From contig NZ_LLKN01000002.1 in the NCBI RefSeq assembly GCF_002900095.1, positions 1,612,001-1,676,000 of the forward strand: a stretch of DNA of 64,000 nucleotides, written 5' to 3'. Under the pieces are notes generated by a model, which did no database searches, was not told the DNA's origin, and was given only the letters and a program-made list of their open reading frames with translations. Made by a program: the position numbers and the translations under genes. Shown here piece after piece: positions 49,783-64,000 of the stretch (positions within the stretch are counted from its first letter, which is position 1; each line of letters begins with the position of its first letter). This stretch comes from Salegentibacter mishustinae (lineage in GTDB: Bacteria; Bacteroidota; Bacteroidia; Flavobacteriales; Flavobacteriaceae).

Positions 49783-50196
49783 TTAATGCGGAAGTTTCTT
49801 CCGAAGTAATCCATATATAAAAGTACCTAAAAGAGATCCTGCAAATACAATTAATATCGGCATAAATCCTGCGCCAATTAAGGTGAATATTGGTCCCGGA
49901 CAGGCACCTGCAAGCGCCCAACCTAATCCAAAGATAATCCCACCATACATATAACGGCTAAAACTTTTTTCTTTCGGAATAAATGTTATTCGCTGTCCAA
50001 AAAAAGATTTCAGGTTTTTACGTTTTATAATTTGAACGCCTATAACTCCTAAAAACAAGGCCGAACCAATAATTCCATACATATGGAAAGACTGGAACTG
50101 AAACATTTCATAGATCCTGAACCAGGAAGCGGCTTCAGATTTAAACATTACAATTCCAAAAAATATACCTATCAATAAATATCCTATACTTCTCAT
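49783..50196 (-). CDS. YeeE/YedE (DUF6691-like) sulfur transport protein, second half
   Basis: The 137-residue protein has about four hydrophobic segments and the YeeE/YedE signature GGIIFGLGWALAGACPGPIF near residue 100, with the conserved Cys. The family moves thiosulfate or other sulfur compounds through the membrane. It follows the 185-residue partner by 9 bases, and both are driven by the GTAAC-type promoter at 50786-50829. Together they make a split YeeE/YedE transporter. Confidence 0.88.
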   Translation of the reverse strand: MRSIGYLLIGIFFGIVMFKSEAASWFRIYEMFQFQSFHMYGIIGSALFLGVIGVQIIKRKNLKSFFGQRITFIPKEKSFSRYMYGGIIFGLGWALAGACPGPIFTLIGAGFMPILIVFAGSLLGTFIYGLLRKKLPH

Positions 50197-50205
50197 AATT
50201 TCAAT

Positions 50206-50763
50206 TTAAAATATTAACGGAAATAATAAATGCACCATTACCAAACCACCTATAAAAAAGCCTATAACGGCTATTAAAGAGGGTAATTGCAAATTACTTA
50301 ATCCAGAAATTGCGTGTCCTGAAGTACAACCCCCGGCATAACGCGCTCCAAAACCAATTAAGATTCCGCCAACTAATAGAATAATTAAAGCTTTAATACC
50401 GCCAACGGCTTCCCAGCTGTAAAGTTCAGTTGGAAGATAAGCTTCCCCGGCACTGCTAAAGCCAAGTTCTTCCAGGGTATTAATCGTATCAGGATTAATG
50501 GCTACCGAAAGATCGTTACTTAAAAAATTTGCTCCTATAAATCCGCCAATAATAGCGCCGGTTACCACAATAAGATTCCAGCGCTGTGATTTCCAGTCAA
50601 AATCAAAAAAATCGGCTTTAGAATCTGCACCGCAAATTGTACACATCGTTCTTAGGTTGGAAGACATTCCAAAACCTTTGCCGATAAAGATGAGTAAAAA
50701 CATTATTAAAGCTATAAGTGGACCCGATACATACCAGGGCCACGGCTCAAAAATCCATTCCAT
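50206..50763 (-). CDS. YeeE/YedE sulfur transport protein, first half
   Basis: The 185-residue protein has about five hydrophobic segments and the key GFGARYAGGCTSGHAISG near residue 145. An extra CTICGADSKADFF near residue 40 adds two Cys in a CxxC arrangement. The YeeE/YedE family imports thiosulfate in several bacteria. It begins the two-gene transcript. A start at ATG 50763 leaves a 22-base gap after the -7-like box. Confidence 0.88.
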   Translation of the reverse strand: MEWIFEPWPWYVSGPLIALIMFLLIFIGKGFGMSSNLRTMCTICGADSKADFFDFDWKSQRWNLIVVTGAIIGGFIGANFLSNDLSVAINPDTINTLEELGFSSAGEAYLPTELYSWEAVGGIKALIILLVGGILIGFGARYAGGCTSGHAISGLSNLQLPSLIAVIGFFIGGLVMVHLLFPLIF

Positions 50764-50785: not shown

Positions 50786-50829
50786 CAAATTAACTAGAAT
50801 TTTTCCAGCAAGACAGTAACAATTGTTAC
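50786..50829 (-). promoter_or_regulatory. Promoter with Crp/Fnr-type palindrome for the YeeE/YedE pair
   Basis: The perfect palindrome GTAACAATTGTTAC (50816-50829) has its centre 29.5 bases upstream of a -7-like box, TTAATTTG on the minus strand (50793-50786, one mismatch to TAnnTTTG). This puts the centre near -42 relative to a start of transcription about 7 bases past the box, the usual class II activator position. Confidence 0.7.
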
Positions 50830-50848
50830 AGGATGAAGCTATAAAAAT

Positions 50849-50873
50849 AAACCCTGAAATAAATTCAGGGTTT
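50849..50873. terminator. Terminator after the hydroxyacid dehydrogenase gene
   Basis: AAACCCTGAA pairs with TTCAGGGTTT around AATAA-type loop. It is REP-like (CCTGAA/TTCAGG) and stands downstream of the minus-strand gene ending at 50904. Confidence 0.55.
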
Positions 50874-50903
50874 CGTACTAATTTTTATAAATATTCTCTC
50901 TAA

Positions 50904-51806
50904 CTAATTAAAATAAGCTTTTAAATTCTCCAGTACTTTTTCTGATAGTCTACGTTGGGTTTCGGCACTCCAGCCTGCACTTTTTTTATGAGAAATAACT
51001 CGATCTATTCGTTTTGTATCCTCGGAAAGTGAAGCACCGCCATCACCATCAAAAATAGCAAAGTTACCTTCAGCTTTTATCCAGTTTACAAAAGCTTTTT
51101 CTTCAAAAGGAAGCCCTAAGGAGGTATTGATCAAAATTTTTCCTGAACCAAAAGTTTCAAATTCCTGTTCGCCCAGCAATTTGGTATTCTTTGGCAGATG
51201 AAGTGTGATGATTTCTGAAGTTTTTAGTAATTCTTCTAAGGATAAATATTGAAGTCCTTTTGCCTCGAATTCCTTCTTTCTACTTCTGCTATAATAATAC
51301 ACATCTGCTCCAAGTGGCAATAATGCTTCTGCTAACAATTGACCAGTAGTACCCAAACCTATAATTCCAATCTTTCTATCGGTGAGTTCCACCGGCATTT
51401 TTCGCCACTGGTTTTTACCAAAACCGTGGAGTAATTGAATTAATTCTGAAATTATAAATTCTATCACTCCGGGATCACCGTAGTCAAAAATACCTTTAAC
51501 GCTAATTCCTTTCTCCCTTGCAAAATCTACGGCCACGTTTGCCGATTCATCATCGTAAAGGCTGCAAGCCATCCCAATGTATTTTAGATGACTGCATTTT
51601 TCAATAACACTTTTTGGAATCTGGGTTTTCCATGAAACAATTATAGCTTCCGCCTCTCCAATTCGCTCTAAAAGTTCCTTTTCTGAATCTGGGCTGTCTT
51701 TAAAAACCTCTACCTCAGCCTCGCTGTACTTTTGGAGTTCTTCAATAGCCCAGTCTTCCAACTTAGTATGGTCTACGCAAACAATTTTATTGAACTTTAC
51801 TCCCAT
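50904..51806 (-). CDS. D-2-hydroxyacid dehydrogenase family protein without the catalytic Arg
   Basis: The 300-residue protein has the NAD-binding IGIIGLGTTGQLLAEALLPLG near residue 147 and the general family fold. The spot that in active enzymes reads N-x-x-R-G is INTSLGLPF, so the substrate-binding Arg is replaced, and the C-terminal catalytic His is in ISHKKSAGWS rather than the usual HxxG context. It may have lost dehydrogenase activity or use another substrate. It overlaps a 46-residue gene by 10 bases and lies downstream of the acyl-CoA carboxylase genes. Confidence 0.8.
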   Translation of the reverse strand: MGVKFNKIVCVDHTKLEDWAIEELQKYSEAEVEVFKDSPDSEKELLERIGEAEAIIVSWKTQIPKSVIEKCSHLKYIGMACSLYDDESANVAVDFAREKGISVKGIFDYGDPGVIEFIISELIQLLHGFGKNQWRKMPVELTDRKIGIIGLGTTGQLLAEALLPLGADVYYYSRSRKKEFEAKGLQYLSLEELLKTSEIITLHLPKNTKLLGEQEFETFGSGKILINTSLGLPFEEKAFVNWIKAEGNFAIFDGDGGASLSEDTKRIDRVISHKKSAGWSAETQRRLSEKVLENLKAYFN

Positions 51807-51937
51807 TCCGGTAGTATAGTTTCATCATAAACCTGGTTCAATAATATACCATCTTCACGAATTTTTCTGGAAATTTCAAATTCCAGTTCCAGCTTTTTTC
51901 TTTCTAATTTTATATTAGGTTCTGTATTTTCAGACAT
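51797..51937 (-). CDS. 46-residue charged helical protein
   Basis: ATG 51937 on the minus strand encodes 46 residues beginning MSENTEPNIKLERKKLELEF and ending DETILPEWE. It looks like one charged amphipathic helix (KLERKKLELEFEISRKIRED). Its stop overlaps the start of the hydroxyacid dehydrogenase gene by 10 bases, and its start is 48 bases after the carboxylase stop, so it lies inside that transcript. Function unknown. Confidence 0.6.
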   Translation of the reverse strand: MSENTEPNIKLERKKLELEFEISRKIREDGILLNQVYDETILPEWE

Positions 51938-51985
51938 ACTTATAAAATTTATAGGTTTAGTATTTTAAATTTGATTAAAAATATT

Positions 51986-53527
51986 CTATAAAGGAATATT
52001 CCCGTGTTTTCGCTCAGGTCTCAGTACTTCTTTATTTTCTAACATACTAAAACCTTTTAATAATTTTCTACGGGTTTCTTTAGGCATAATCACCTCATCT
52101 ATAAATCCGCGTTGAGCGGCTTCAAAAGGATTAGCAAAAGTTTCTGCATATTCAGCCTCTTTCTCTGCTAACTTAGCTTCGCTGTCTTCGGCTTCTTTAA
52201 TTTCTTTCCTGAAAATAATTTCACTGGCTCCTTTGGCTCCCATCACTGCAATTTCGGCAGTTGGCCAGGCAAAATTTAGATCGGCGCCAATGTGCTTAGA
52301 ATTCATCACATCGTAAGCCCCGCCATAGGCTTTTCGGGTAATTACGGTTACTTTTGGTACAGTGGCCTCACTTAGCGCATAAAGTAATTTAGCCCCGTTT
52401 AGAATGATCCCGTTCCACTCCTGGTCTGTACCGGGTAAAAAGCCAGGCACATCTACCAATACTAACAACGGAATATTGAAACAATCACAATAACGAGTGA
52501 AACGAGCTGCTTTTTTAGAAGAATCTACATCTAAAACCCCCGCCAAACTCATTGGCTGATTGGCAACAATTCCAACACTTCTTCCGCCTAAGCGCGCAAA
52601 ACCAACAATAATATTATCGGCATAATCTTTATGAATTTCAAAAAATGAATCTTCATCTATTATTCCTCTAATCACCTCGTGCATATCATAAGGTTTCGTA
52701 GAGCTATCGGGTACAATACTGTCAAGTTCTTCCCTTATTTCATCTCCTAATTTATATGGAAGTTTTTCCGGTGCCTTTTTGTTGTTCTGGGGCATATAAC
52801 TCACCAGTTTCTTAATATCTTCAAGGCAGGCGATATCGTTAAAGGATGTGATATGCGTTACCCCAGATTTTGTTGCGTGGGTAGAAGCGCCACCAAGTTC
52901 TTCGGAAGTTACTTCCTCGTTAGTCACCGTTTTCACCACGTTAGGCCCGGTTACGAACATATAACTGGTATCCTGAACCATAAGTGTAAAATCTGTCATT
53001 GCCGGAGAATAAACAGCTCCCCCGGCACAAGGGCCCATTATCGCTGAAATTTGCGGAATCACCCCAGATGCCTTTACATTTCTATGGAAGATATCGGCAT
53101 AACCACCAAGCGATTTTACACCTTCCTGAATTCTGGCTCCACCTGAATCGTTTAAACCAATCATTGGCGCTCCAACTTTCACAGCAAGATCCATCACTTT
53201 ACAAATCTTCTCTGCGTGAGTTTCAGATAAGGAACCGCCAAACACGGTAAAATCCTGGGCAAAAATATAGACCAATTTTCCGTTGATGGTCCCATAACCG
53301 GTTACCACACCATCGCCATAAAATTTCTGATCTTCCATTCCAAACCCGGTAGTTCTATGGGTTACCAGAATTCCGATTTCTTCAAAAGAACCTTCATCTA
53401 ATAAATAATCAATACGTTCGCGGGCGGTAAGTTTCTTTTTTTCGTGCTGTTTAGCTATTCGTTTTTCCCCACCACCAAGGTGCGCCTGCTTAATTTTATC
53501 CTGTAACTTTTCTATATTCTGACTCAT
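51986..53527 (-). CDS. Acyl-CoA carboxylase carboxyltransferase (beta) subunit
   Basis: From ATG 53527 the 513-residue protein is a carboxyltransferase of the propionyl-CoA type: [21 protein letters not shown], then [13 protein letters not shown] with the oxyanion Gly-Gly-Ala, and [15 protein letters not shown] and [17 protein letters not shown] in the second domain. It transfers carboxyl from biotin to an acyl-CoA, most likely propionyl-CoA. The TTG at 53530 would add one residue only. It follows accC by 130 bases, which hold repeat copy A. Confidence 0.93.
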
Positions 53528-53537
53528 CAATATTTTT

Positions 53538-53640
53538 TTTACTCGATCATCGAGATTTAAATACTCCGAGGCAAGCCTCGAAATTCAAAATTTTTCCATT
53601 TAATTCCTCGTAGATATGCCTCGAGGTAATTTACTTCAAC
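53538..53640 (-). repeat. Structured repeat, copy A (reference copy)
   Basis: On the minus strand it holds three hairpins: CCTCG-AGGCATATCTA-CGAGG, CGAGGC-TT-GCCTCG, and CTCGAT-G-ATCGAG followed by TAAAAAAAA. The end lies 11 bases before the carboxyltransferase ATG at 53527. Copy B at 4781-4886 is similar throughout. Confidence 0.75.
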
Positions 53641-53657
53641 TTAAAAAGATAGGAACA

Positions 53658-55100
53658 TTAGTTTTGAGGTATACGCAATTGTTGCCCGTCTTCCAGATAT
53701 TTTTTTAAGGCTACCAAAGCAGCAAGTTTTGCTTCTTCCTGAATTTCATCTTCAAGTTTTTCGGCGGAATAATACTTCTTTACAAAGTGTGTATCAAAGT
53801 TTCCGCTTCTAAAAGCTTCGTGTTCAAAAACAAACTTTCCAAAAGGAAGCGTGGTCATTACCCCTTCAACTTCATATTCCTTTATGGCTTTTATCATTAA
53901 TTGAATTGCTTCTTCACGCGTTTTCCCGTAAGTAATTAATTTCGCCAACATCGGGTCGTAATAAATAGGAACTTCCATCCCTTCTTCAAAACCATTATCT
54001 ACCCGAATATTTTCTCCCTTAGGAATAGTATATTTTTCAAGCTTTCCAACACTTGGCATAAAATTATCCATAGGATCTTCTGCATAAACCCTAAGTTCTA
54101 CGGCGTGCCCTTTTATCTTTAAATCCTCCTGAAGCAACTTTAGCTTTTCGCCCCTGGCAATTTTAATTTGCTGTTCTACCAGATCAATCCCAGTTATATA
54201 TTCGGTTACGGGATGTTCTACCTGCAAACGTGTATTCATTTCAAGAAAATAGAAATTCTTATTTTCATCGAATAAGAATTCTACAGTACCGGCACCAACA
54301 TAATCACAAGCCTTGGCTACTTTTACCGCAGCTTTTCCCATTTGCTTTCTCAGTTTATCATCAAGAACAACCGAAGGAGCTTCTTCTACCACTTTTTGGT
54401 GTCTACGCTGAATACTGCATTCTCTTTCAAACAGGTGAAAATAATTTGCGTGGGTATCTGCTAAAACCTGTATTTCTATATGCCTTGGGGACGACACGTA
54501 TTTCTCAATAAAAACAGAACCATCACCAAAAGCCGATTCAGCTTCGCTTATGGCACGTTTCATTTGGTCTTCCAGATCCTTCTCTTTTTCAACAATACGC
54601 ATTCCTTTTCCTCCACCACCGGCAGAAGCTTTTATTAAAATAGGAAAACCGATCTCTTTAGCAATTTTCTTAGCTTTTTCAGGATCGGTAATGGCTTCAT
54701 CTATTCCGGGAACCATTGGGATATCGTAAGCTTTAACCGCATCTTTTGCTGCAAGTTTACTTCCCATAATTTTAATGGCTTTAGAACCCGGGCCAATCCA
54801 GGTAATTCCATTTTTTTCTACATTTTCTGCAAAACCGGCATTTTCACTTAAAAAACCATACCCGGGATGAATCCCGTCTACGCCTAATTCTTTTGCTACT
54901 TCGATTATTTTATCGCCTTTAAGATAAGATTCATTAGAAGGCGCTTCTCCAATACAAACCGCCTCGTCGGCAAATTTTACGTGAGGCGCGTTCCTATCGG
55001 CTTTAGAGAAAACGGCTACTGTTTTGATTCCCATCTTTTGAATGGTTTTCATTACCCGAAGCGCAATCTCTCCCCTATTGGCTACTAATATTTTTTTCAT
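53658..55100 (-). CDS. accC: Biotin carboxylase subunit of the acyl-CoA carboxylase
   Basis: The 480-residue protein has the biotin carboxylase ATP-grasp set: GYGFLSENAGFAE, the Gly-rich KASAGGGGKGMRIV, FERECSIQRRHQKVVEEAPS, and EMNTRLQVEHPVTE with the catalytic Arg. It carboxylates biotin on the carrier protein with ATP and bicarbonate. It is 35 bases downstream of the carrier gene. Length is slightly longer than AccC (450) due to a C-terminal tail. In this context it serves the carboxyltransferase at 51986, so it may be a propionyl-CoA subunit rather than that for fatty-acid synthesis. Confidence 0.93.
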   Translation of the reverse strand: MKKILVANRGEIALRVMKTIQKMGIKTVAVFSKADRNAPHVKFADEAVCIGEAPSNESYLKGDKIIEVAKELGVDGIHPGYGFLSENAGFAENVEKNGITWIGPGSKAIKIMGSKLAAKDAVKAYDIPMVPGIDEAITDPEKAKKIAKEIGFPILIKASAGGGGKGMRIVEKEKDLEDQMKRAISEAESAFGDGSVFIEKYVSSPRHIEIQVLADTHANYFHLFERECSIQRRHQKVVEEAPSVVLDDKLRKQMGKAAVKVAKACDYVGAGTVEFLFDENKNFYFLEMNTRLQVEHPVTEYITGIDLVEQQIKIARGEKLKLLQEDLKIKGHAVELRVYAEDPMDNFMPSVGKLEKYTIPKGENIRVDNGFEEGMEVPIYYDPMLAKLITYGKTREEAIQLMIKAIKEYEVEGVMTTLPFGKFVFEHEAFRSGNFDTHFVKKYYSAEKLEDEIQEEAKLAALVALKKYLEDGQQLRIPQN

Positions 55101-55135
55101 TTTAATGATTTTGAATTTGGATTCTGTTAATTGAA

Positions 55136-55621
55136 TTATTCCATTTCAATTAACAACTGATTCTTTTCTACCGTTTCCCCTTTTTTGATCGAAACAGATT
55201 TAACCACTCCATCTCTGGGAGCAGTTAGCGTGTTCTCCATTTTCATCGCTTCTAAAACGAGCAAGTAATCACCTTCCTGCACTTCAGCACCCTCTTCTAC
55301 GTTAACTTCCAGGATAAGTCCCGGCATTGGTGCTTTAATGTCATTGATCATTTGTGCACTCCCAATGGAAAGTCCCATTTCTTCAATAAGCAAATCCAGC
55401 TCATTAGAAATGGCTACTTTATAAGTATTGGAGTTGATCTTAATATCGTATTGTCGCTGAAGAAAATTTTCGGTAAAAACCTCAGCTTTAAAACTGCGAT
55501 TTTCCTTTAGCAGGTGGTAATGCTTATCTGCAATTTCCTGGGTATCTAAAGAAGTAATTTGGTCTTTGGTAAATTCAAATTCATAAGAGTCATTAACCTT
55601 AACCTTATATTTTTTTTCCAT
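55136..55621 (-). CDS. Biotin carboxyl carrier protein of the acyl-CoA carboxylase
   Basis: The 161-residue protein ends with the biotinyl domain: DIKAPMPGLILEVNVEEGAEVQ and the biotin-lysine motif LVLEAMKMENTL near residue 129. The N-terminal 85 residues are a beta-rich region. It carries biotin between the carboxylase and carboxyltransferase. It is the first gene of the three-gene operon. Confidence 0.92.
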   Translation of the reverse strand: MEKKYKVKVNDSYEFEFTKDQITSLDTQEIADKHYHLLKENRSFKAEVFTENFLQRQYDIKINSNTYKVAISNELDLLIEEMGLSIGSAQMINDIKAPMPGLILEVNVEEGAEVQEGDYLLVLEAMKMENTLTAPRDGVVKSVSIKKGETVEKNQLLIEME

Positions 55622-55787
55622 ATTTCGTTGTTTTCAAATCTAATTTGAAGCTTGTTTTGTAAATATAGAAAATCGTTTGAAATTAGTTTTAAGATAAATC
55701 AGAATTACCGCATATATATTCACAAAAAATTAAAATAAATCGGAATTACATTTCTTATTTTAGGGTTAAACCAAAAAACTAAGAATT

Positions 55788-56201
55788 ATGAAAAGATTAT
55801 TTATAACAGGATTATTGGTATTTTTCGGACTCACTTTTGGGCATGCTCAAAAATCTGAACTACCCGAAATGGTATCAGCCTATGTTTCGCAACTTTTTCC
55901 GAATGAAAAAATTAAAACTGTAAAAGTTGATAAAGGAGACAATTGGGAAACTTATGAAATTAAAATGTCTGGAGGTACCGAACTTAGTTTCGACCAAAAT
56001 AACCAGCCGACTGAGATAAAGTGTAAAAGCAGAATTCCCGCTTCAGCATTACCACTTAATATTGCAGGTTACGTGACAAAAAACCATCCCAATATTAAAA
56101 TTGTAGAATATGAAATGGATGAGGAAGGACACGAAGTTGAACTGGAAAATGGAGATGAACTGGAATTTGATCCAGAAGGGAATTTTGTAGAAATGGATTA
56201 A
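55788..56201 (+). CDS. Secreted PepSY-like protein
   Basis: The 137-residue protein has a signal peptide (ending FGHAQ) and two similar PepSY-like units: residues 25-75 (AYVSQLFPNEKIKTVKVDKGDNW) and 85-135 (GYVTKNHPNIKIVEYEMDEEGH), each followed by a strand ELSFDQNNQPTEI or ELEFDPEGNFVEM. This matches the PepSY-like/DUF2874 family of Bacteroidota. Function unknown. A terminator follows. Confidence 0.85.
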   Translation: MKRLFITGLLVFFGLTFGHAQKSELPEMVSAYVSQLFPNEKIKTVKVDKGDNWETYEIKMSGGTELSFDQNNQPTEIKCKSRIPASALPLNIAGYVTKNHPNIKIVEYEMDEEGHEVELENGDELEFDPEGNFVEMD

Positions 56202-56222
56202 CAGGTTTTTCCTATTAAAATA

Positions 56223-56258
56223 AAAAATCCCCGTAGAAATGATTCTACGGGGATTTTT
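56223..56258. terminator. Terminator between the PepSY-like gene and the MBL-rhodanese gene
   Basis: AAAAATCCCCGTAGAA pairs with TTCTACGGGGATTTTT around a 4-base loop. Confidence 0.9.
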
Positions 56259-56279
56259 GATTAAATAAGTACCTAAAAA

Positions 56280-57626
56280 TTACTTGTTATTAAATTCTTT
56301 AATCGCTTCACTTAGATCATAAACCTTAGTGTTCTTAAATTTATTCTCAAGAATACTGCTTCCGGCTGCAGAGCGATATCCACCGGCACAGTGCACCATA
56401 AACGGTTTATCTTCCGGTAACTCATCGGCACGGTCTCTTAGCTCATTTAAAGGAATTGCCTTTGCATTTTCAAAGATTTTACCTTCAGCAATTTCTCCAG
56501 CATTTCTAATATCTACAATAGTATATTTATCCTTGTTTTCTTTGAAATCTTTTAGATCAAAGTCATCTGAAGATTTTGAAACTTTTTCAGATAAAGTAAG
56601 CACACCTTTCATTTGCTTTTCGTAACCTACTTTTGCGGTTCTTTCCAATAGTTCATCAATTTGATCTACACTATTAACCACCAGGTAAAACTCTTCATTT
56701 GGTTTAATGATGGCTCCCAACCAGGTTTCATATTTATCACTTTCTGATCTAGCCATAATATTGATACTGTTTGGCAAATGTCCTTTTTTATAAGCATCTC
56801 CATCTCGAGCATCTACTATGGTCTTTCCTTCTTCTGGTGCTGCGTCTACATTAAGTTTTACCGGCACTTCATATTTCGCTTTCTGCACGTTTAGAGCTCC
56901 ATTTCTATTTAGGTCTACATTGAAACCAAAATAAGCAGGAATAAAAGGCTGATCTTTTAAGATCTCTTCCACAAACTCTTCTTCAGTTTGCTCTTTAAAT
57001 GCCCAGTTTCCCTGGCGTTCATTTCCCAGTGTACTGGAAGAAGCATCACTCATATTTTTTCCGCAAAGCGAACCTGCACCGTGAGCAGGGTAAATTATAG
57101 TATCGTCTGGCAAATCGTTAAATTTGGTTTGCATCGTGTTATACATTTGCTTTGCAAGTTCTACACGTTTTGCCTTCATATTTCCGGCTTTTTCACGTAA
57201 ATCTGGTCTTCCTACGTTTCCGATAAAAAGGGTATCTCCACTAAACATAGCTGTTTCTCCTTTTTCTTCAGCAATAAATGTTAAACTATCTGGCGAATGA
57301 CCAGGTGTATGTAAAGCTTTTACACTAACACTTCCTATTTGCACCTCATCCCCTTCATCAAAAGGAGTGTGTGGGTAATCTACCCCAACTTTTTCACTAA
57401 TATAGATTTTAGCACCTGTTTCTTCCTGAATTTGTAAATGTCCACTTACAAAATCGGCGTGTGGATGCGTCTCAAAAACTGCAACAATCTTTGCGCCGTT
57501 ATCTTCAGCATATTTATAATACTGCATAGGATTTCGGCTGGGATCTACCACTGCCATTTCTCCATTACTTACAAGGGCATAAGAATAATGCGCTAGAGGT
57601 TCGTCTTTAAATTGTTTTATTTTCAT
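56280..57626 (-). CDS. Metallo-beta-lactamase (ETHE1-like) protein with two rhodanese domains
   Basis: The 448-residue protein starts with an ETHE1-type metallo-beta-lactamase fold: THPHADFVSGH near residue 53 with His54, His56 and Asp58, HTPGHSPDSL, and GDTLFIGNVGRPDL. Then come two rhodanese domains, the first without catalytic Cys (IVDARDGDAYKKGHLPNSINI) and the last with HCAGGYRSAAGS (Cys near residue 414). This is the persulfide dioxygenase-rhodanese (CstB-like) layout: oxidation of persulfide to sulfite and sulfur transfer. It follows the hydroxylase gene by 17 bases and belongs to the GTAAC-type regulon. Confidence 0.92.
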   Translation of the reverse strand: MKIKQFKDEPLAHYSYALVSNGEMAVVDPSRNPMQYYKYAEDNGAKIVAVFETHPHADFVSGHLQIQEETGAKIYISEKVGVDYPHTPFDEGDEVQIGSVSVKALHTPGHSPDSLTFIAEEKGETAMFSGDTLFIGNVGRPDLREKAGNMKAKRVELAKQMYNTMQTKFNDLPDDTIIYPAHGAGSLCGKNMSDASSSTLGNERQGNWAFKEQTEEEFVEEILKDQPFIPAYFGFNVDLNRNGALNVQKAKYEVPVKLNVDAAPEEGKTIVDARDGDAYKKGHLPNSINIMARSESDKYETWLGAIIKPNEEFYLVVNSVDQIDELLERTAKVGYEKQMKGVLTLSEKVSKSSDDFDLKDFKENKDKYTIVDIRNAGEIAEGKIFENAKAIPLNELRDRADELPEDKPFMVHCAGGYRSAAGSSILENKFKNTKVYDLSEAIKEFNNK

Positions 57627-57643
57627 TGTATGTCTCTTTTTAA

Positions 57644-58537
57644 TTATTGAGTTGATTTCTGTATGTTCTTCTTTTTAAATGGAAAAGTCATCTGACTTTT
57701 AAAATCTTCTGGAAATTTTTCATCTCCTTCAAAACCAAGTTCTATATTTTTTCCTTCCTGCGGGATATATGCCGTACCGAACAAATAATCCCATATACTA
57801 AGACTTAAGCCAAAGTTCATCCCGTGCGGTCTGTCCGCCGGAAGCGCTTTAGAATGATGCCAGATATGCATTTTTGGATTATTAATAAGATACCCCAAAA
57901 TACCGTAATTCCAGCCTAGATTGGCGTGGTTTAAATGTCCAATAAACACTGCAAACATATGAACCACAAAAAATTGCTGTATTCCAAAACCTATCATTGC
58001 CAGGGGAATATACTGCACCGATTTATAGATTACAGTTTCCATAAAATGGAACCTAAACTGCGCAGCAAAACCCATTTCTTTAACGCTGTGATGTACTTTA
58101 TGAAATTCCCAAAGCCAGGGCTGCTTGTGCAATTGTCGATGAACATTCCACTGTATAAAATCTGCGATCACAAACATAATAAGCAACTGCCCCCACACCG
58201 GGAAATTTTGTACTTCTATGGCTACAATATTAGTAACTCCAAAAAGGCCCAGAAAATCATTAAATAATTCTACGGCAACGTTGGAGATCGCATTATACCC
58301 AACCAGCGAAAACAGGAAAAAATTAAATAAAATATAGAACGTATCCAGCCAGAAGCCCTTCCGAAAAATCTTTTGATCTTTTCTCCAGGGGATCAAAATC
58401 TCCAAGCCCCAAACTAATAGCGACAAGCCTATAAGCCAATAAAAATAATTGGTCCAAGACGGATTGCTAATTTCATTTACCAGGTAATTAAAGTACCCAG
58501 TAAAAGAATTGGCTATTATGTTAAAGTACTTTTCCAG
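57644..58537 (-). CDS. Sterol desaturase / fatty acid hydroxylase family protein, probable CTG start
   Basis: The His clusters HRQLHK, EFHKVHHSVKEM and IWHHSK near the middle and end mark the di-iron membrane hydroxylase family, with about four helices. The ATG-like reading starts only at TTG 58426 in a helix, but the frame is open upstream to a stop before 58540, adding 37 residues (LEKYFNIIANSFTGYFNYL...) with no ATG, GTG or TTG. The -7 box at 58558-58565 is just 20 bases before CTG 58537, fitting this genome's leader length. I therefore start at CTG 58537; ATA 58522 is the other choice. Substrate unknown; it leads the persulfide protein's operon. Confidence 0.75.
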   Translation of the reverse strand: MEKYFNIIANSFTGYFNYLVNEISNPSWTNYFYWLIGLSLLVWGLEILIPWRKDQKIFRKGFWLDTFYILFNFFLFSLVGYNAISNVAVELFNDFLGLFGVTNIVAIEVQNFPVWGQLLIMFVIADFIQWNVHRQLHKQPWLWEFHKVHHSVKEMGFAAQFRFHFMETVIYKSVQYIPLAMIGFGIQQFFVVHMFAVFIGHLNHANLGWNYGILGYLINNPKMHIWHHSKALPADRPHGMNFGLSLSIWDYLFGTAYIPQEGKNIELGFEGDEKFPEDFKSQMTFPFKKKNIQKSTQ

Positions 58538-58557
58538 ACTGTTTTAATTTCTTGAGG

Positions 58558-58601
58558 CAAAAATATAATAATCCTGCACTTCAGGCAGTAACTTTTGTTA
58601 C
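58558..58601 (-). promoter_or_regulatory. Promoter with Crp/Fnr-type palindrome for the hydroxylase and persulfide genes
   Basis: GTAACTTTTGTTAC (58588-58601) has its centre 29.5 bases upstream of TATTTTTG (minus strand 58565-58558), a perfect -7 box. Same spacing as at 50.8 and 61.3 kb. Confidence 0.75.
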
Positions 58602-58618
58602 AGTTGGTAATTAGCAAA

Positions 58619-58728
58619 TTAATAAAAACTTTAGAGCAAGTTCGCGAAGCATTATCAATGGAAAATATAATTTGATTTCGAGGAAAGCTATGGGGCATTT
58701 AATCTCAATTATTGAATAAGTTTTTTTT
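58619..58728 (+). repeat. Structured repeat, copy C
   Basis: It aligns along copy A: ATTATCAATGGAAAATATAA, TTTCGAGGAAAGCTATGGGG and AATCTCAATTATTGAATAAG. In the last, the CTCGAT/ATCGAG arms have become CTCAAT/ATTGAA, which still mostly pair. The next gene starts 111 bases later. Confidence 0.55.
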
Positions 58729-58839
58729 AGTAGACCTTAACATTCTTAAACGTTGTAGTGTTAGCTTAAGTTAAATACTCAGTTTTTCAGTCATTTCTGC
58801 TTAATTTTATTTCAGATTAGAGAACAAAAAAAGACGATT

Positions 58840-59832
58840 ATGAGTAAGATGAAATTGAAATACAAATATGGTTTAGGCGGTGTTGCCATAGGTCACGGCT
58901 TTAAACCTATAAGTAATGAACAGGCAGAATCTACATTAAAAGCTGCCTGGGAGGCTGGAGTAAGATACTACGATACTTCCCCATGGTACGGCCTTGGCTT
59001 AAGTGAAAGACGTTTTGGACATTTTTTAAGCAGTAAAAAGCGAGAGGATTATGTTCTTTCTACCAAAGTAGGCAGGGTTTTAAAGGCAACTAAAAACATC
59101 CCCGAAGTAATGTGGCAGGAGCCATCCCCTTTTGATTATAAATATGACTATTCTGCAGAAGCCGTGAGACGATCGGTTGAAGATAGTTTACAAAGATTAG
59201 GAGTAGCTTATTTAGACTATGCTTTTATTCACGATCTTTCTCCAGACCATAATGGAGAATATGAAGAAGGAGTAACCTGGGAAGATCATTTTGAAGTAGC
59301 AAAAAATGGCGCTATGCCAGAGCTTGAAAAGATGAAAGAAGAAGGCTTGATTAAAGCCTGGGGACTTGGAGTGAATACGATAGATCCTATTTTAAAAACC
59401 CTGGAGGTTGCCAAACCAGATGTATTCCTTTCGGCTATTCAATATTCTTTAGTGCATCATAAAGATGCTTTAAAGCGTTTATTGCCCGCTATTGAAAAAA
59501 GTGAAGCTACTTTAATAAATGCCGCTCCTTTTAACGCCGGACTTCTTACAGGCCAAAAACGTTATAATTATGGCGGGGAAATGCCTGAAGATATTAGCGA
59601 CAGTTATAAAAAGATTTTGAAAATTGCTGAAAAACATAAGGTTAACCTTGTGGCGGCATCCTTACAATTCTCTTTAGCTCCAAAAGCAGCAGATACCGTG
59701 CTGGCTGGTGCAAGTAAACCAGAACAGGTTCAGGAAAATGTGAAAGCACTGGAAGAAAAAATTCCGGCAGAATTCTGGTCAGATTTAAAACAGGAAAATT
59801 TAATTGAACAAAAAGCTGAAGTACCAGCTTAG
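58840..59832 (+). CDS. Aldo/keto reductase
   Basis: The 330-residue protein has the AKR barrel with YYDTSPWYGLGLSE (catalytic Asp and Tyr), STKVGR with Lys, and the late AGASKPEQVQENV. Within the family it is closest to the sugar dehydrogenase group (D-threo-aldose 1-dehydrogenase / fucose dehydrogenase pattern). It acts on an aldose or similar carbonyl with NAD(P). A later start at Met4 is possible. A bidirectional terminator follows. Confidence 0.9.
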   Translation: MSKMKLKYKYGLGGVAIGHGFKPISNEQAESTLKAAWEAGVRYYDTSPWYGLGLSERRFGHFLSSKKREDYVLSTKVGRVLKATKNIPEVMWQEPSPFDYKYDYSAEAVRRSVEDSLQRLGVAYLDYAFIHDLSPDHNGEYEEGVTWEDHFEVAKNGAMPELEKMKEEGLIKAWGLGVNTIDPILKTLEVAKPDVFLSAIQYSLVHHKDALKRLLPAIEKSEATLINAAPFNAGLLTGQKRYNYGGEMPEDISDSYKKILKIAEKHKVNLVAASLQFSLAPKAADTVLAGASKPEQVQENVKALEEKIPAEFWSDLKQENLIEQKAEVPA

Positions 59833-59837
59833 ATCCC

Positions 59838-59880
59838 AAACCCACGAATTCACTAAAAAATTTGGTGAATTCGTGGGTTT
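59838..59880. terminator. Terminator between aldo/keto reductase and porin-like gene
   Basis: AAACCCACGAATTCAC pairs perfectly with GTGAATTCGTGGGTTT around an 11-base loop, with AT-rich sequence on each side. Confidence 0.75.
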
Positions 59881-59885
59881 CAATT

Positions 59886-61256
59886 TTAAAAATTGAAATT
59901 GGTAACAAAATTCAATTGGTTATAATTACTTCGGTTAAATATACTTTCGGCGTTGGTATGGTTTAGATTTTTCCTGTGAACCCATAAGATATCAAAACTC
60001 AATCCTTCAAAAAAACCCCTTGCCCGGTAACTTAAGTGACTATTTACCTGGAAGGATTCATCTACATTATATTTATTGAATTCAAAATCATCAACTTTAG
60101 CGCCCCTCACTTGTTGCACCTCTACCCCAATATTAAAATTATCTGGAAGGAACCGATATTCGGTTTTGAAAACAAAAACATCAACATTCCCCATTCCTTC
60201 CAGCCTGGATCGTGAAATTGAAGTAAAAAAGCGATCTCGTCCTAATTCCTTCGGAAATAAAAACCGTCCCGAATCAAAAGCGTGGGTATAAGCAAAAGCT
60301 AATTTTAATCCCGCTTGTTCCCAACCTATTTGCGAGCTTAGTACCTGCCCGTTTTCCCCGGGTTGCACATATCTATTTATGTAAGCCAGATCTTCTGAAT
60401 AAGAAAAAGGATTTTGATAAACATATTGAATTCCGAAGCTAAAATCAGTAAGCTTATAGTCGACTTCCACCCAAAATGTATTCATTATTTTATCCTGGTA
60501 ATAATCATAAAAATTAAGCTCAAGATTTTCTTTTTTAAGATTATAATTTATGATCCCTATTCCTGAAGAAGAATAAAAATTATGGTAATTAGCTTTTTCT
60601 CCGTTGGGTTGAAATCCGTTATTAAAAAGTCCGTGCGCTTCATCCATAGCAAAGCATTGGGTTGTTGCACGTGGGGAAACCCCATTGAGCCAACCAAGAT
60701 TAACCTGATGTTTTGAATTAAAATTTAAATGCGCCCAGCCTCCTCTATGCACAAAAGGCATCATACGGCCATCGCTCTTGTTTAAGAGTGGCGTAAACTC
60801 GGTCTCAAATTTTCCATATTCTATATATGATTTTCCAAACCTGTAGCGAATAAAAAGCTCTTCAAGTCTATTGAGATCTCTAAAGTTCCCTTTATCCAAA
60901 ATATTATAAAGCTCATATTCCCATTTGGCATTTTTTCCCGTTACAGCATCTACCCTATCCAAATCGCTTCCAAAGCTTTTATACACAAAACTCCCTTTTA
61001 CCCCAAGTTGAAAACCATAATAATTTCCGGTAGTAAATCCAACTGCGGCACCTGTTGCATTGCTGTAGTAATCTTTTAGGTCTCGGCTATTTATTGTGTT
61101 CATAAAGTAATTTCTAACATTCCCACTAACTGCTGCGTGGTGAAAAATATCCTGCAGGTGAAAACTTTCTTCTTCGGGCTGCTCATTAATTTGAGCATTA
61201 AGGCTTAAACTCAACATAAAAACAATTAGAAAAGAAAGTTTATGGAGGTGTTGCAA
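59886..61256 (-). CDS. Outer-membrane porin-like beta-barrel protein (OprD-like)
   Basis: The 456-residue protein has a signal peptide (FLIVFMLSLSLNAQ), an early FHHAAVSGNVRNYFMNT as in OprD-type porins, alternating aromatic strands, and a terminal Phe (FVTNFNF), typical of barrels. It probably lets a small solute pass the outer membrane. It is driven by the palindromic promoter at 61282-61325, divergent to the DoxX/DsrE/SoxB-like operon, suggesting that it admits a sulfur compound; this is inference. Confidence 0.78.
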   Translation of the reverse strand: MQHLHKLSFLIVFMLSLSLNAQINEQPEEESFHLQDIFHHAAVSGNVRNYFMNTINSRDLKDYYSNATGAAVGFTTGNYYGFQLGVKGSFVYKSFGSDLDRVDAVTGKNAKWEYELYNILDKGNFRDLNRLEELFIRYRFGKSYIEYGKFETEFTPLLNKSDGRMMPFVHRGGWAHLNFNSKHQVNLGWLNGVSPRATTQCFAMDEAHGLFNNGFQPNGEKANYHNFYSSSGIGIINYNLKKENLELNFYDYYQDKIMNTFWVEVDYKLTDFSFGIQYVYQNPFSYSEDLAYINRYVQPGENGQVLSSQIGWEQAGLKLAFAYTHAFDSGRFLFPKELGRDRFFTSISRSRLEGMGNVDVFVFKTEYRFLPDNFNIGVEVQQVRGAKVDDFEFNKYNVDESFQVNSHLSYRARGFFEGLSFDILWVHRKNLNHTNAESIFNRSNYNQLNFVTNFNF

Positions 61257-61281
61257 AACAAAATTTTTAAGGTTCGGGGTG

Positions 61282-61325
61282 CAAAATTCCTGAATAATAA
61301 AGGCAGCTACAGTAACAAGGGTTAC
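61282..61325 (-). promoter_or_regulatory. Promoter with Crp/Fnr-type palindrome for the porin-like gene
   Basis: GTAACAAGGGTTAC (61312-61325) has its centre 29.5 bases upstream of GAATTTTG (minus strand 61289-61282), one mismatch to TAnnTTTG. Confidence 0.65.
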
Positions 61326-61343
61326 TTTTAAAATTTCAGCTTT

Positions 61344-61387
61344 GTAACATAAGTCACTAACATTCCGAAATCTTCTAATTATTTTCG
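61344..61387 (+). promoter_or_regulatory. Promoter with Crp/Fnr-type palindrome for the DoxX/DsrE/SoxB-like operon
   Basis: GTAACATAAGTCAC (61344-61357, one mismatch to the palindrome) has its centre 29.5 bases upstream of TATTTTCG (61380-61387, one mismatch to TAnnTTTG). It faces the porin promoter. Confidence 0.6.
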
Positions 61388-61428: not shown

Positions 61429-61785
61429 GTGAGATTCAAAACTTACATAGCAATTTTATTTACCGTAGTTTTCTTCGGAAAATTTCTGATGCTAGACGCG
61501 AAAGTGCTTAATAGTGTTTTGCATTCTGAAGGTATTGCACTGGTAAACCCGTTTTGTAAGAAAAACGATCGGCAAACAGCCGATGATAGTATTTTAAGTC
61601 AGGATTCTTCTGTTTTGGTTGTAAGCAGCGATGCAATATGTACTTCTTTCTTTTTTGTTACGAATCCAGAATTCCAGGAAGAAGAGGTTGAAGACAATTT
61701 CCACGACTTCAATTATTTGAATCCGGCTATAATTTCTATTTACTTTTCTAAAGATTATCCGCCTCCAAAGGCATTAGTGGCCTAA
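61429..61785 (+). CDS. Secreted or anchored protein of unknown function, first gene of the sulfur operon
   Basis: The GTG at 61429 starts a 118-residue frame with an N-terminal hydrophobic segment (YIAILFTVVFFGKFLML) and a soluble remainder with two Cys (NPFCKK, SDAICTS). No family is recognised. It comes 41 bases after the -7-like box and 60 bases before doxX, so it should be on the same transcript. The GTG is the first start in this frame after a stop; an alternative start is not seen. Confidence 0.6.
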   Translation: MRFKTYIAILFTVVFFGKFLMLDAKVLNSVLHSEGIALVNPFCKKNDRQTADDSILSQDSSVLVVSSDAICTSFFFVTNPEFQEEEVEDNFHDFNYLNPAIISIYFSKDYPPPKALVA

Positions 61786-61845: not shown

Positions 61846-62253
61846 ATGAATTCACAAATTTTAGTGAGTCGTCGCTCTATACAATTATTACGGGTGATGC
61901 TTAGCGGGATATTTCTCGTAGCCAGTTTACACCATTTATTCAATATTAAAAAAACCGTAAATAGAATTGACCAGGCCAGTTTTAAAGGACTTGCCTATTT
62001 TTTCGGAAACCCTGAATTGCTAGTAATTCTATCTGGCGTGGTTATGCTTATTGCGGGTTTTGCCCTGCTTATAGGTTTCAAAACTCGCTGGACTGCCATA
62101 ATTCTACTGGCAGTTTTAATTCCCATTACCCTTACTGTGCAGGTAGGACAAATTACAACGCTGGGGCCGCTTTTTAAAAATATTGCAATAGCCGGCGGAC
62201 TCCTGTTTTTTATCCTCAACGATTTTAAAGATCAACAAACAACAAAAATATAA
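61846..62253 (+). CDS. DoxX family membrane protein
   Basis: The 135-residue protein has four hydrophobic segments with LLRVMLSGIFLVASLHHLFN at the start and the DoxX-like LLIGFKTRWTAIILLAVLIPIT. DoxX relatives include the DoxD/DoxA thiosulfate-quinone oxidoreductase parts; others act in thiol stress. The sulfur-gene context favours electron transfer linked to thiosulfate or sulfide. Quinone binding cannot be judged from sequence. Confidence 0.85.
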   Translation: MNSQILVSRRSIQLLRVMLSGIFLVASLHHLFNIKKTVNRIDQASFKGLAYFFGNPELLVILSGVVMLIAGFALLIGFKTRWTAIILLAVLIPITLTVQVGQITTLGPLFKNIAIAGGLLFFILNDFKDQQTTKI

Positions 62254-62283: not shown

Positions 62284-62700
62284 ATGAAAAATTCAATTTT
62301 AATCTTTACAGCTTTTTTTATGCTGTTTTCAATAACTACAAATGCTCAAAACCACGATCCTGAAAAAAATAATTATGTGGTTTTAACCAAGAAAATTCCG
62401 CAGTTACAGCCCATTTTAATTACTGCGGAAGAGCTACAAAAAGAGGATGGACATCATTTTGGTGATTTCCAGGTTATTGTTTGCGGCCAGACCGTAAAAG
62501 GCTTAACCGATAAAGAACAAATGCAAAAGTTTATCCAACGAGCCAAAAAAGCCAATGTTGCCATTAAGGCCTGCGGATTTTCCCTCAAAAAATTTGGTGT
62601 AGATCCTAAAGCGATTCCATCAGAAATGGAAGTTGTTGAGAATGGAATCCTATATGATTTTCAACTTCAGAAAAAGGGATATTTCAGTATAGAGCTTTAA
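62284..62700 (+). CDS. Secreted DsrE-family protein, first copy
   Basis: The 138-residue protein has a signal peptide (ending TTNAQ) and a DsrE-like domain with FGDFQVIVCGQTVKGL and NVAIKACGFSL. Cys97 in the second segment fits the DsrE sulfur-carrying Cys, and there is a further Cys67. DsrE-family proteins carry persulfide sulfur; exported versions act in the periplasm. It pairs with the next copy, about half identical by eye. Spacing of 30 bases from doxX. Confidence 0.85.
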   Translation: MKNSILIFTAFFMLFSITTNAQNHDPEKNNYVVLTKKIPQLQPILITAEELQKEDGHHFGDFQVIVCGQTVKGLTDKEQMQKFIQRAKKANVAIKACGFSLKKFGVDPKAIPSEMEVVENGILYDFQLQKKGYFSIEL

Positions 62701-62732: not shown

Positions 62733-63152
62733 ATGATGAAAAAAATAGGAATTCTAATCTTAGTCTTTATGCTGGGCGTTTCAGGTTTTGCTCAAACAAA
62801 ATCAGGAATTGAGAAGAATAATTATGTAGTATCTACTTCCAAAATTCCACAGTTAGAACCAATAATTCTTACTGCTGAAGCATTAAAACAAGAAGATGGA
62901 CACAAATTTGGTGATTTTCAGATAATCCTTTATGGACGAAATGTTAAGGAGCTTACAGATAAAGAGAAGATGAAAAACTACGTTGAAAAAGCTAAAGCTG
63001 CGGGCGTGGAGATAAAAGTTTGTAAACTCTCTATAAACTTTTTAAAAATTGACATAAAAGATTTACATCCCTACGTAAAGGTAGTAGACCACGCCTTTAC
63101 ACATCTTTTACAATTACAAAAGAATAAGAACTACTACAGTATAGAACTATAA
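62733..63152 (+). CDS. Secreted DsrE-family protein, second copy
   Basis: The 139-residue protein repeats the first copy: signal peptide ending GVSGFAQ, the same KIPQLEPIILTAEAL and FGDFQIILYGRN, and VEIKVCKLS with Cys97. Cys67 of the first copy is Tyr here. The start may be Met1 or Met2. The two genes look like a tandem duplication with divided roles, such as sulfur donor and acceptor; this is inference. Confidence 0.85.
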   Translation: MMKKIGILILVFMLGVSGFAQTKSGIEKNNYVVSTSKIPQLEPIILTAEALKQEDGHKFGDFQIILYGRNVKELTDKEKMKNYVEKAKAAGVEIKVCKLSINFLKIDIKDLHPYVKVVDHAFTHLLQLQKNKNYYSIEL

Positions 63153-63162
63153 AAGATAATCT

Positions 63163-64000
63163 ATGAAAATTAGTTTAAAGACAGCATTAATCCTGTTTTC
63201 AGGCATTGCTACCATTGGTTTATATACCTCTTGCAACAATGCAAATGGTAAAAACCCAGAGAAAAATAAAGATAAAACCACTAAAATCACCATTTTACAA
63301 ACTGCCGATATTCACGGGCAACTTGATTCTCACCCCGAATTATTTTGGGAAGATGAAGAAATAGTTTTTAAAGAACGTGGTGGCCTGGCGCATATTCAAA
63401 CCCTCTTTGAAGAAGAACGTGCCAAAAACCCAAATACGGTAATTTTGGATGGTGGCGATCTTATCCAGGGAAGTGGCTATGCCGCTCTTTCGGAAGGAAA
63501 AATTTTTCCTGAAATTATAAAGAATATGGATTACGATCTTCTAGTGCCGGGAAATTGGGAAGTAGTCTATGGCAAGAAAGTAATGATGAATGTTCTACAG
63601 GGTTTTGAAACTCCTGTAATTGTTCAGAATATGTTTCACCAGGAAGATAATAAAGAGCTTTTCCCTCCCTACTGGACCAAAGAAATTGAAGGTGTAAAAC
63701 TTGGGTTTATCGGGATAAACGATCCTGATGTTCCTGTAAGGCAAAACCCGATTTTTAGTGAAGGTATTGACTTTAGCGGATTAAACGAGGGCGTAGAAGA
63801 ACTTATTCTGAAAGTAAAAAAGGAAGAGAAAGTTGACGCGCTGTTTTTGGTAACCCATTTTGGGATTTTTAAGCAGGTAGAATTGGCTAACAATCCAATT
63901 GCTAAAGATGTAGATTATATCTTCGGAAACGATACTCACGAACGCGTACGGGAGCCTATTCAAGGGAAATATGCGAAAGTTACCGAACCCGGGGCTTTTG
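63163..64000 (+). CDS. SoxB-like 5'-nucleotidase-family lipoprotein (3' truncated by window end)
   Basis: The 279-plus residue product has a lipobox (GLYTSCNN, Cys24). The metallophosphatase motifs are TADIHGQ near residue 49, GGDLIQGS near residue 103, VPGNWEVVYG, and THFGIF with FGNDTHERV. The form GNWE followed by YG instead of GNHE is the SoxB hallmark in this superfamily. SoxB hydrolyses the sulfate group from SoxY-bound thiosulfate in the periplasm. The rest and other sox genes lie outside the window. A plain 5'-nucleotidase is the alternative. It starts 10 bases after the second DsrE gene. Confidence 0.8.
   Translation, partial: MKISLKTALILFSGIATIGLYTSCNNANGKNPEKNKDKTTKITILQTADIHGQLDSHPELFWEDEEIVFKERGGLAHIQTLFEEERAKNPNTVILDGGDLIQGSGYAALSEGKIFPEIIKNMDYDLLVPGNWEVVYGKKVMMNVLQGFETPVIVQNMFHQEDNKELFPPYWTKEIEGVKLGFIGINDPDVPVRQNPIFSEGIDFSGLNEGVEELILKVKKEEKVDALFLVTHFGIFKQVELANNPIAKDVDYIFGNDTHERVREPIQGKYAKVTEPGAF

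Follow-up and report, generated by a model that had tools for sequence, protein, structure and literature searches.

A Crp/Fnr-family protein linked to a palindrome-and-box promoter element of a predicted reactive-sulfur regulon in Salegentibacter mishustinae and its relatives

Four promoters in a 64,000-nucleotide stretch of the Salegentibacter mishustinae genome (contig NZ_LLKN01000002.1, positions 1,612,001 to 1,676,000; hereafter the window) carry the palindrome GTAACnnnnGTTAC at one and the same distance upstream of a -7 box. In this and related genomes the composite of both (palindrome, 22 bases and TAnnTTTG) precedes genes of sulfur metabolism and tracks the gene of one Crp/Fnr protein, which in S. 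mishustinae lies 7 kb past the window end. We propose that this protein controls a reactive-sulfur regulon from a class II position, and put the probability of the regulon, its regulator and the site position as proposed at about 0.82.

A promoter element of fixed geometry

The elements in the window are the following:
50816..50829, minus strand: palindrome GTAACAATTGTTAC, upstream of the YeeE pair; exact copy, composite with one mismatch
50786..50793, minus strand: -7 box TTAATTTG, 29.5 bases from the centre of the 50816 palindrome
58588..58601, minus strand: palindrome, minus-strand reading GTAACAAAAGTTAC; exact copy, composite with 0 mismatches
58558..58565, minus strand: -7 box TATTTTTG, paired with the 58588 palindrome
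61312..61325, minus strand: palindrome, minus-strand reading GTAACCCTTGTTAC, for the porin-like gene; exact copy, composite with one mismatch
61282..61289, minus strand: -7 box GAATTTTG, paired with the 61312 palindrome
61344..61357, plus strand: palindrome GTAACATAAGTCAC; one mismatch, composite with two mismatches
61380..61387, plus strand: -7 box TATTTTCG, paired with the 61344 palindrome

The initial annotation had reported these four palindromes and a common spacing of 29.5 bases. Both statements hold: three palindromes are exact copies, the fourth (61344-61357) has one mismatch, and all four boxes start 36 bases after the first base of their palindrome. Compared with TAnnTTTG, the boxes show 1 (TTAATTTG), 0 (TATTTTTG), 1 (GAATTTTG) and 1 (TATTTTCG) mismatches. 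The 61312 site is kept before porin-like homologues in two related loci (L062, L063) and missing in a third (L104). The homologous site of 61344 has 0 mismatches in L132 and L136, 1 in L063, L065, L069, L073 and L075, 2 in L061 and L062, and 3 in L066. With up to two mismatches, 38 palindrome matches occur in the window where 20 are expected.

Over the whole genome the palindrome alone is no commoner than its reversed control, either as exact copies (5 versus 9) or with at most one mismatch (124 versus 139), and its enrichment by itself was therefore dropped as evidence. As to whether the motif is frequent without the spacing, which would have spoken against the proposal, four of the five exact copies have a box with 0-1 mismatch. 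Three of the five are in the window and one is 7 kb past it; the remaining copy (C2:64224-64237) lies inside a gldM-like coding sequence, which we take to be gldM itself, has no box and was set aside. Composites in the genome number 2 without mismatch, 4 with one, 1 with two and 37 with three. These 44 matches compare with 66 in the control, for which only the total of all mismatch classes is given, and the 37 composites with three mismatches are background. The seven with up to two mismatches are the four window sites, C2:1682997-1683040, C1:239682 and C1:247412.

With the regulator as query, we compared 80 loci, the best 80 of 589 confirmed. Their titles name mostly genera that we take to belong to Flavobacteriaceae, while some give only Flavobacteriales, Bacteroidia or Bacteroidetes; the nearest regulator relative among these best 80 of 589 is that of Salegentibacter maritimus (97%). 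We counted 203 copies of the palindrome GTAACnnnnGTTAC, spread over 76 of the 80 loci; the average for all 1024 half-sites is 2.85. The next commonest half-site, TTTTT, reaches 95, other permutations of the palindrome's letters at most 12, and any gap other than 4 at most 4 copies. When the window and locus L006 are added, 189 of 208 palindromes have a box scoring at least 5/6 at offset 36, and no more than 10 of 208 have one at any of 31 other offsets. Oriented by the box, the consensus reads T.TGTAACWWWWGTTACTG, about 19 unconserved bases and TAnnTTTGC, each base of the spacer (positions 17 to 35) carrying less than 0.15 bit. The distance from palindrome to start codon is most often 45-60 bases. 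Exact composites were found at 69 sites in 35 of 60 family genomes and 0 times in the reversed control; the composite of palindrome and box is thus the non-random element.

In Flavobacterium psychrophilum, mapped transcription starts place TAnnTTTG at -12 to -5 (PMC9723704). With the box at -12 and the palindrome centre 29.5 bases upstream of its first T, the site would be centred at about -41.5, in agreement with the class II geometry suggested by the initial annotation. The final TG of the site falls where the TTG of the -33 promoter element would lie, so the palindrome probably takes over this element.

Target genes of the element

The genes behind the window promoters are:
50206..50763, minus strand: one half of a YeeE/YedE-type sulfur transporter (Sulf_transp; Pfam PF04143, 8.5e-17)
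49783..50196, minus strand: its second half, YeeE/DUF6691 (PF20398, 1.7e-10; PF04143, 9e-07)
57644..58426, minus strand: membrane protein of the FA_hydroxylase family (PF04116, 2.2e-28)
56280..57626, minus strand: ETHE1-like metallo-beta-lactamase fold (persulfide dioxygenase-like) with two rhodanese stretches (PF00753, PF00581)
59886..61256, minus strand: porin-like outer-membrane protein; weak Opr porin match below cut-off, Pfam search without match
61429..61785, plus strand: orf118, first gene of its operon; no Pfam family matched
61846..62253, plus strand: DoxX family protein (PF07681, 2.4e-12)
62284..62700, plus strand: DsrE-like protein 1 (PF02635, 8.9e-05)
62733..63152, plus strand: DsrE-like protein 2 (PF13686, 1.6e-04, below cut-off)
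63163..64000, plus strand: SoxB-like metallophosphoesterase (PF00149), running past the window (L006:4164-5813)

Three of the four gene sets stand as initially annotated (the YeeE/YedE pair, the hydroxylase with the ETHE1-rhodanese gene, and the porin-like gene). The fourth gains a member: orf118 precedes the DoxX-DsrE-DsrE-SoxB-like genes at the head of the operon. The FA_hydroxylase frame is open upstream of its listed TTG start (58426) and matches the relative in L073; the likely start, a CTG near 58537, stands 51 bases away from the palindrome, a distance also seen in other targets. In NCBIfam the ETHE1-rhodanese protein scores 55.6 bits with the Blh equivalog (cut-off 625), and the best match of the SoxB-like protein, SoxB (3.4e-76), reaches 257 bits (cut-off 550).

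Besides the claimed window genes, the regulon has further members elsewhere in the genome. The site on C2 lies behind the stop of the Crp/Fnr gene and ahead of tauE; its box, TACTTTTG, matches TAnnTTTG perfectly and stands at 29.5 bases. Downstream of tauE, in the same orientation, come an ICMT-family gene after a gap of 37 and cydAB after one of 53; because these genes are co-directional with short gaps, the tauE promoter may also drive cydAB and thus reach the cytochrome bd oxidase. Of the two near-exact sites on C1, one precedes an SQR-like gene (family score 180 bits, below the cut-off of 525) followed by TolC and RND efflux genes, the other two rhodanese genes.

Across the compared loci, a site with at most one mismatch stands upstream of 48 of 59 TauE, 47 of 74 ETHE1-like, 18 of 30 YeeE_N, 7 of 12 orf118, 8 of 13 FA_hydroxylase and 4 of 5 porin genes, all of them first genes (the window and L006 copies of one gene are both counted). 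Even with two mismatches allowed, none was found before YeeE_C (26 genes), DoxX (12), DsrE (12 and 5), SoxB-like (10), CydB (17), ICMT (13) or unrelated neighbours. The sites mark operon-leading genes and not later ones. In a Pfam scan of the first 150 of 164 target proteins, in which one protein can count twice, Rhodanese (46), TauE (42), Lactamase_B (38) and YeeE-type Sulf_transp (14) were the commonest domains, with Pyr_redox_2 (7), sulfate permease (3) and cytochrome bd (2) also present; the window and L006 copies, boxes scoring below 5 or tied, and targets more than 200 bases away had been left out of this list. The sulfur genes at the sites of the window, the genome and the relatives support the reduced-sulfur regulon that the initial annotation had read from the window.

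Sites away from the regulator were viewed in 20 stretches, hand-picked around 21 of the 69 composites. Six of the 21 sites precede TolC-like outer-membrane genes, 3 ETHE1-like and 2 thioredoxin-like genes, and one each a sulfate-permease-like, CydA-like, rhodanese-like, TauE, orf118-like, DsrE-like and HMA-like gene. Two have no assigned gene and one, in a genome without orthologue at E 1e-40 (G010), no open reading frame. ETHE1, CydA, orf118, TauE and DsrE were named from the best 8 BLAST rows, thioredoxins from Pfam, and TolC, sulfate permease, rhodanese and HMA by eye from annotated proteins; one ETHE1-like match (L272) is weak, with 27% identity over 140 residues. The TolC-like genes lie directly behind their sites in L262, L264, L267, L268, L276 and L279. 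In Cellulophaga baltica, such a site is followed by a gene for a molybdopterin oxidoreductase with a Mo-co dimerisation domain (sulfite-oxidase-like; L130:13455-14672).

The regulator, its helix and its cysteines

The initial annotation had expected a Crp/Fnr-type regulator outside the window, and a fitting gene adjoins the further exact site:
G000:C2:1683050-1683676, minus strand: Crp/Fnr regulator gene, 210 residues, 7 kb past the window end

Both domains of the protein score above cut-off (PF00027, 1.4e-09; PF13545, 1.3e-07), which places it in the Crp/Fnr superfamily, and its model fold matches Crp-family structures. In 59 of the 80 loci a palindrome is found no more than 100 bases from the regulator gene. 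Of the family genomes, 47 have a regulator match at E 1e-40 and 34 of these carry exact composites, as does 1 of the 13 others (Fisher p 3.6e-5). We also drew 395 genomes across the phylum, counted the tables by hand and called orthologues at E <=1e-55, a threshold chosen after the gap within the family (7e-66 to 4e-48) had been seen. By rank, composites were present in 22 of 41 genomes of the family, 1 of 8 of the order outside the family, 12 of 49 of the class outside the order and 1 of 297 beyond, with 0 control matches in the whole draw. They occur in 30 of 43 genomes with an orthologue and 6 of 352 without. Within the family the ratio is 21 of 23 to 1 of 18 (Fisher p 1.9e-8), and within genus g60, which holds all 18 orthologue-free family genomes, 5 of 5 to 1 of 18 (Fisher p 1.8e-4); the only regulator relative in those 18 has 38-42% identity. 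Moreover, regulator-bearing genomes hold 68 composites, of which 29 are no more than 10 kb from the regulator gene, about 0.5 being expected (three weaker regulator copies, two in G032 and one in G018, were left out). The sites track the regulator.

In a 20-row alignment of regulators, S180, R181, V182, V183, S185 and R186 are invariant. R181, V182 and R186 correspond to Arg180, Glu181 and Arg185 of E. coli CRP, its specific DNA contact residues (PMC3715548). A survey of 170 distinct regulators, with loci of identical regulator DNA counted once, found a GTAAC palindrome within 1.5 kb of 110 of 144 regulators with the Arg-Val helix and of 1 of 26 with Arg-Glu. Linkage and this specificity together point to the protein as the probable regulator, which would exert class II Crp/Fnr control. 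Changes of Glu181 in E. coli CAP reportedly shift the base preference at position 7 (Ebright and co-workers, 1984). The strict palindrome TGTGA-N6-TCACA was found near 0 of the 26 Arg-Glu regulators. In a set of 25 Arg-Glu loci, from which L133 was excluded and in which three loci were swapped for wider stretches of the same genomes, the looser GTGA-N6-TCAC turned up at 5 sites; a box scoring 5/6 or better accompanies 4 of them at offset 36 and none at any of 21 other offsets. GTGA is also the half-site most often accompanied by a box at this offset in these loci, though the number is small, and a GTGA half-site with the same offset for Arg-Glu regulators is suggestive only. The 4 boxed sites belong to related regulators with SREV or SREA helices (L214, L222, L224).

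Cys76, Cys82 and Cys83 are all Cys in 81 of 81 best orthologues, and all three are kept in 138 of 144 Arg-Val and 18 of 26 Arg-Glu types. None of these three, the invariant cysteines of the 20-row alignment, is N-terminal, so the cysteine cluster of classical FNR is absent. The structure model puts them where it is least certain, between two strands of what was once the ligand pocket; the cysteine geometry was not taken from it, given a loop with predicted local distance difference test (pLDDT) values below 50. The three cysteines could fit a thiol or persulfide sensor, or could bind metal or haem. That reactive sulfur acts directly on Cys76/Cys82/Cys83 is plausible but falls somewhat short of even odds.

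Known systems, rival explanations and a proposed mechanism

E. coli CRP, whose half-site is TGTGAT, is centred at -41.5 in class II promoters. The present regulator would share this position and keeps the equivalents of Arg180 and Arg185, and TGTAAC is close to TGTGAT; it differs in Val for Glu181 and in the cysteines of the ligand pocket, and scores 51 bits with the E. coli-type CRP equivalog (cut-off 266), having Arg-Val instead of Arg-Glu. Cyanobacterial NtcA is also alike: its site GTAN8TAC, of which GTAACnnnnGTTAC is a special case, is centred at about -41.5 at promoters that NtcA activates, with a -10 box TAN3T (PMC3898017), and its helix TRVTVTR aligns to SRVVISR of the regulator. However, NtcA answers 2-oxoglutarate and serves nitrogen genes (PMC3898017), and the regulator reaches 43.5 bits with the NtcA equivalog (cut-off 245). 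The palindrome GTAACnnnnGTTAC itself was published in 2005 by Rodionov et al. for HcpR2, Bacteroides included (PMC1274295), so that in view of HcpR2 and NtcA the DNA motif is not new. Our literature search, made on titles and abstracts with most subscription journals outside its coverage, found no description of this regulon or regulator and no paper on flavobacterial sulfide sensing; by that search, the new part is the use of a known motif by this regulator for this regulon.

The gene set resembles the BigR regulon of Xylella, Agrobacterium and Acinetobacter in its ETHE1-type dioxygenase with sulfurtransferase domain, TauE and YeeE/YedE genes (PMC5823870, PMC7315123), here found under one predicted control site. 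BigR, as these papers describe it, belongs to the ArsR-family repressors and has a Cys pair, whereas here a Crp/Fnr protein would sit at an activator position. FisR of Acinetobacter, too, activates SQR, persulfide dioxygenase and TauE genes, but it is a sigma54 activator, while the -7 box here is the housekeeping TAnnTTTG (PMC7315123). In Acinetobacter, CydAB is sulfide-induced and refractory to sulfide (PMC7315123).

Could another protein bind the sites? HcpR2 has the identical consensus, Bacteroides included, and its residue 181, like its equivalent here, is not Glu (PMC1274295); the sulfur genes would then be an extension of its nitrosative-stress regulon. Yet HcpR2 controls hcp and has Pro at 181 in most species (PMC1274295), where Val stands in 20 of 20 alignment rows; a hybrid-cluster-protein gene is missing from the genome (PF03063 0 of 1, control rings 5 of 14), and no prismane family is among the 25 most frequent Pfam families of the 150 target proteins. 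We consider this quite improbable and rejected HcpR2 on the missing PF03063 gene and the helix Val, setting it apart by published description and not by a tree. Among the other Crp/Fnr proteins of the genome, the one in L018 (C2:1543871-1544572) has a helix in which, by eye, a residue other than Glu comes after Arg. Its relatives (E <=1e-30), however, occur in 3 of 41 family genomes as against 22 of 41 with composites, on which ground it was rejected, and the other seven of nine cyclic-nucleotide-monophosphate-domain proteins have different helices or no Crp helix (by eye); we regard binding by any of these as extremely unlikely. The protein of L018 (G000:C2:1543871-1544572) is Crp/Fnr-like with HTCSNC near its N-terminus and the helix STRAVVNR, and a convergent open reading frame downstream (L018:2779-3144) appears cysteine-synthase-like, by eye only.

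The regulon may also be real and its regulator may sense something else, such as oxygen, a haem-bound gas or general thiol oxidation, with sulfur genes responding indirectly. Crp/Fnr proteins sense many signals, and the targets in relatives include peroxiredoxin, cytochrome c, cytochrome bd and HMA genes. The commonest targets are nevertheless rhodanese/dioxygenase, TauE and YeeE, the kind of set that stands under persulfide sensors elsewhere (PMC7315123, PMC5823870), and the conserved cysteines are in the effector-pocket region. We hold such another signal to be a real possibility, although we rather doubt it. That the protein represses, or that the palindromes reflect chance or shared ancestry, is very unlikely. 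The loci have ancestry in common, and a site so placed could in principle serve for repression; but the unconserved spacer, with site, box and distance kept, argues against simple shared descent, the reversed control gave 0 against 69 composites, and -41.5 is the position from which CRP acts in class II promoters. It is also the activating position of NtcA (PMC3898017).

Several observations weigh against the proposed regulon and regulator. The 80 loci are related by descent and not independent. No exact composite was found in 13 of the 43 orthologue-bearing genomes, among which are all 6 outside the class, and one is present in 6 of 352 genomes without a regulator match at E <=1e-55. At one mismatch or fewer, 27 of 74 ETHE1-like and 16 of 20 CydA genes in the loci have no site before them, and 61 of 1023 genes of other families are preceded by one (rhodanese, SQR-like, peroxiredoxin, TolC and sulfate permease genes among them). 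Some targets are not obviously sulfur-related (porin, TolC efflux, HMA, DUF983). Arg-Glu regulators are mostly more distant (37-52% identity), so that helix type varies together with overall distance and the helix-motif link is confounded with phylogeny; the exception, L133 (67% identical, SREV helix), has two GTAAC palindromes nearby. GTAAC departs from TGTGA one base before the base numbered A6, to which residue 181 is tied in PMC1274295. Lastly, 6 of 144 Arg-Val regulators miss one or two of the cysteines, and the model is least reliable in the loop that holds them (residues 81-83, pLDDT below 50).

For the proposed sulfur regulon under this Crp/Fnr protein, we infer binding, activation rather than repression, the pathway roles and the signal as follows. 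A dimer would bind TGTAAC-N4-GTTACA at at least seven promoters, with Arg-Val, where E. coli CRP has Arg-Glu, accounting for recognition. At about -41.5 it would replace most of the -33 element and activate the housekeeping sigma from a fixed position, as in class II. Reactive sulfur would likely act on Cys76/Cys82/Cys83 in the former cyclic-nucleotide pocket. Of the products, the SQR-like protein might oxidise sulfide, the ETHE1-rhodanese and free rhodaneses might act on persulfides, TauE and YeeE might carry sulfite- or thiosulfate-like species, and the DsrE proteins might be sulfur carriers; cydAB would possibly be read from the tauE promoter. More broadly, Flavobacteriaceae and relatives may possess a group of persulfide/polysulfide-sensing Crp/Fnr activators with a Cys-x5-Cys-Cys triad at the place of cyclic AMP in CRP, running a reactive-sulfur regulon that elsewhere is under ArsR- or sigma54-type sensors, its GTGA/GTAA code switched by one Glu/Val change with the geometry fixed. 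This wider proposal is tentative, and we would give it a little less than an even chance.

Flavobacteria are abundant in the sea, and one regulator, one site and one spacing make a testable regulon with exact promoters. The Arg-Val and Arg-Glu helices represent a natural experiment on the evolution of Crp/Fnr recognition, and the regulon would link orf118, the porin-like protein and TolC-like efflux genes with the handling of sulfur.

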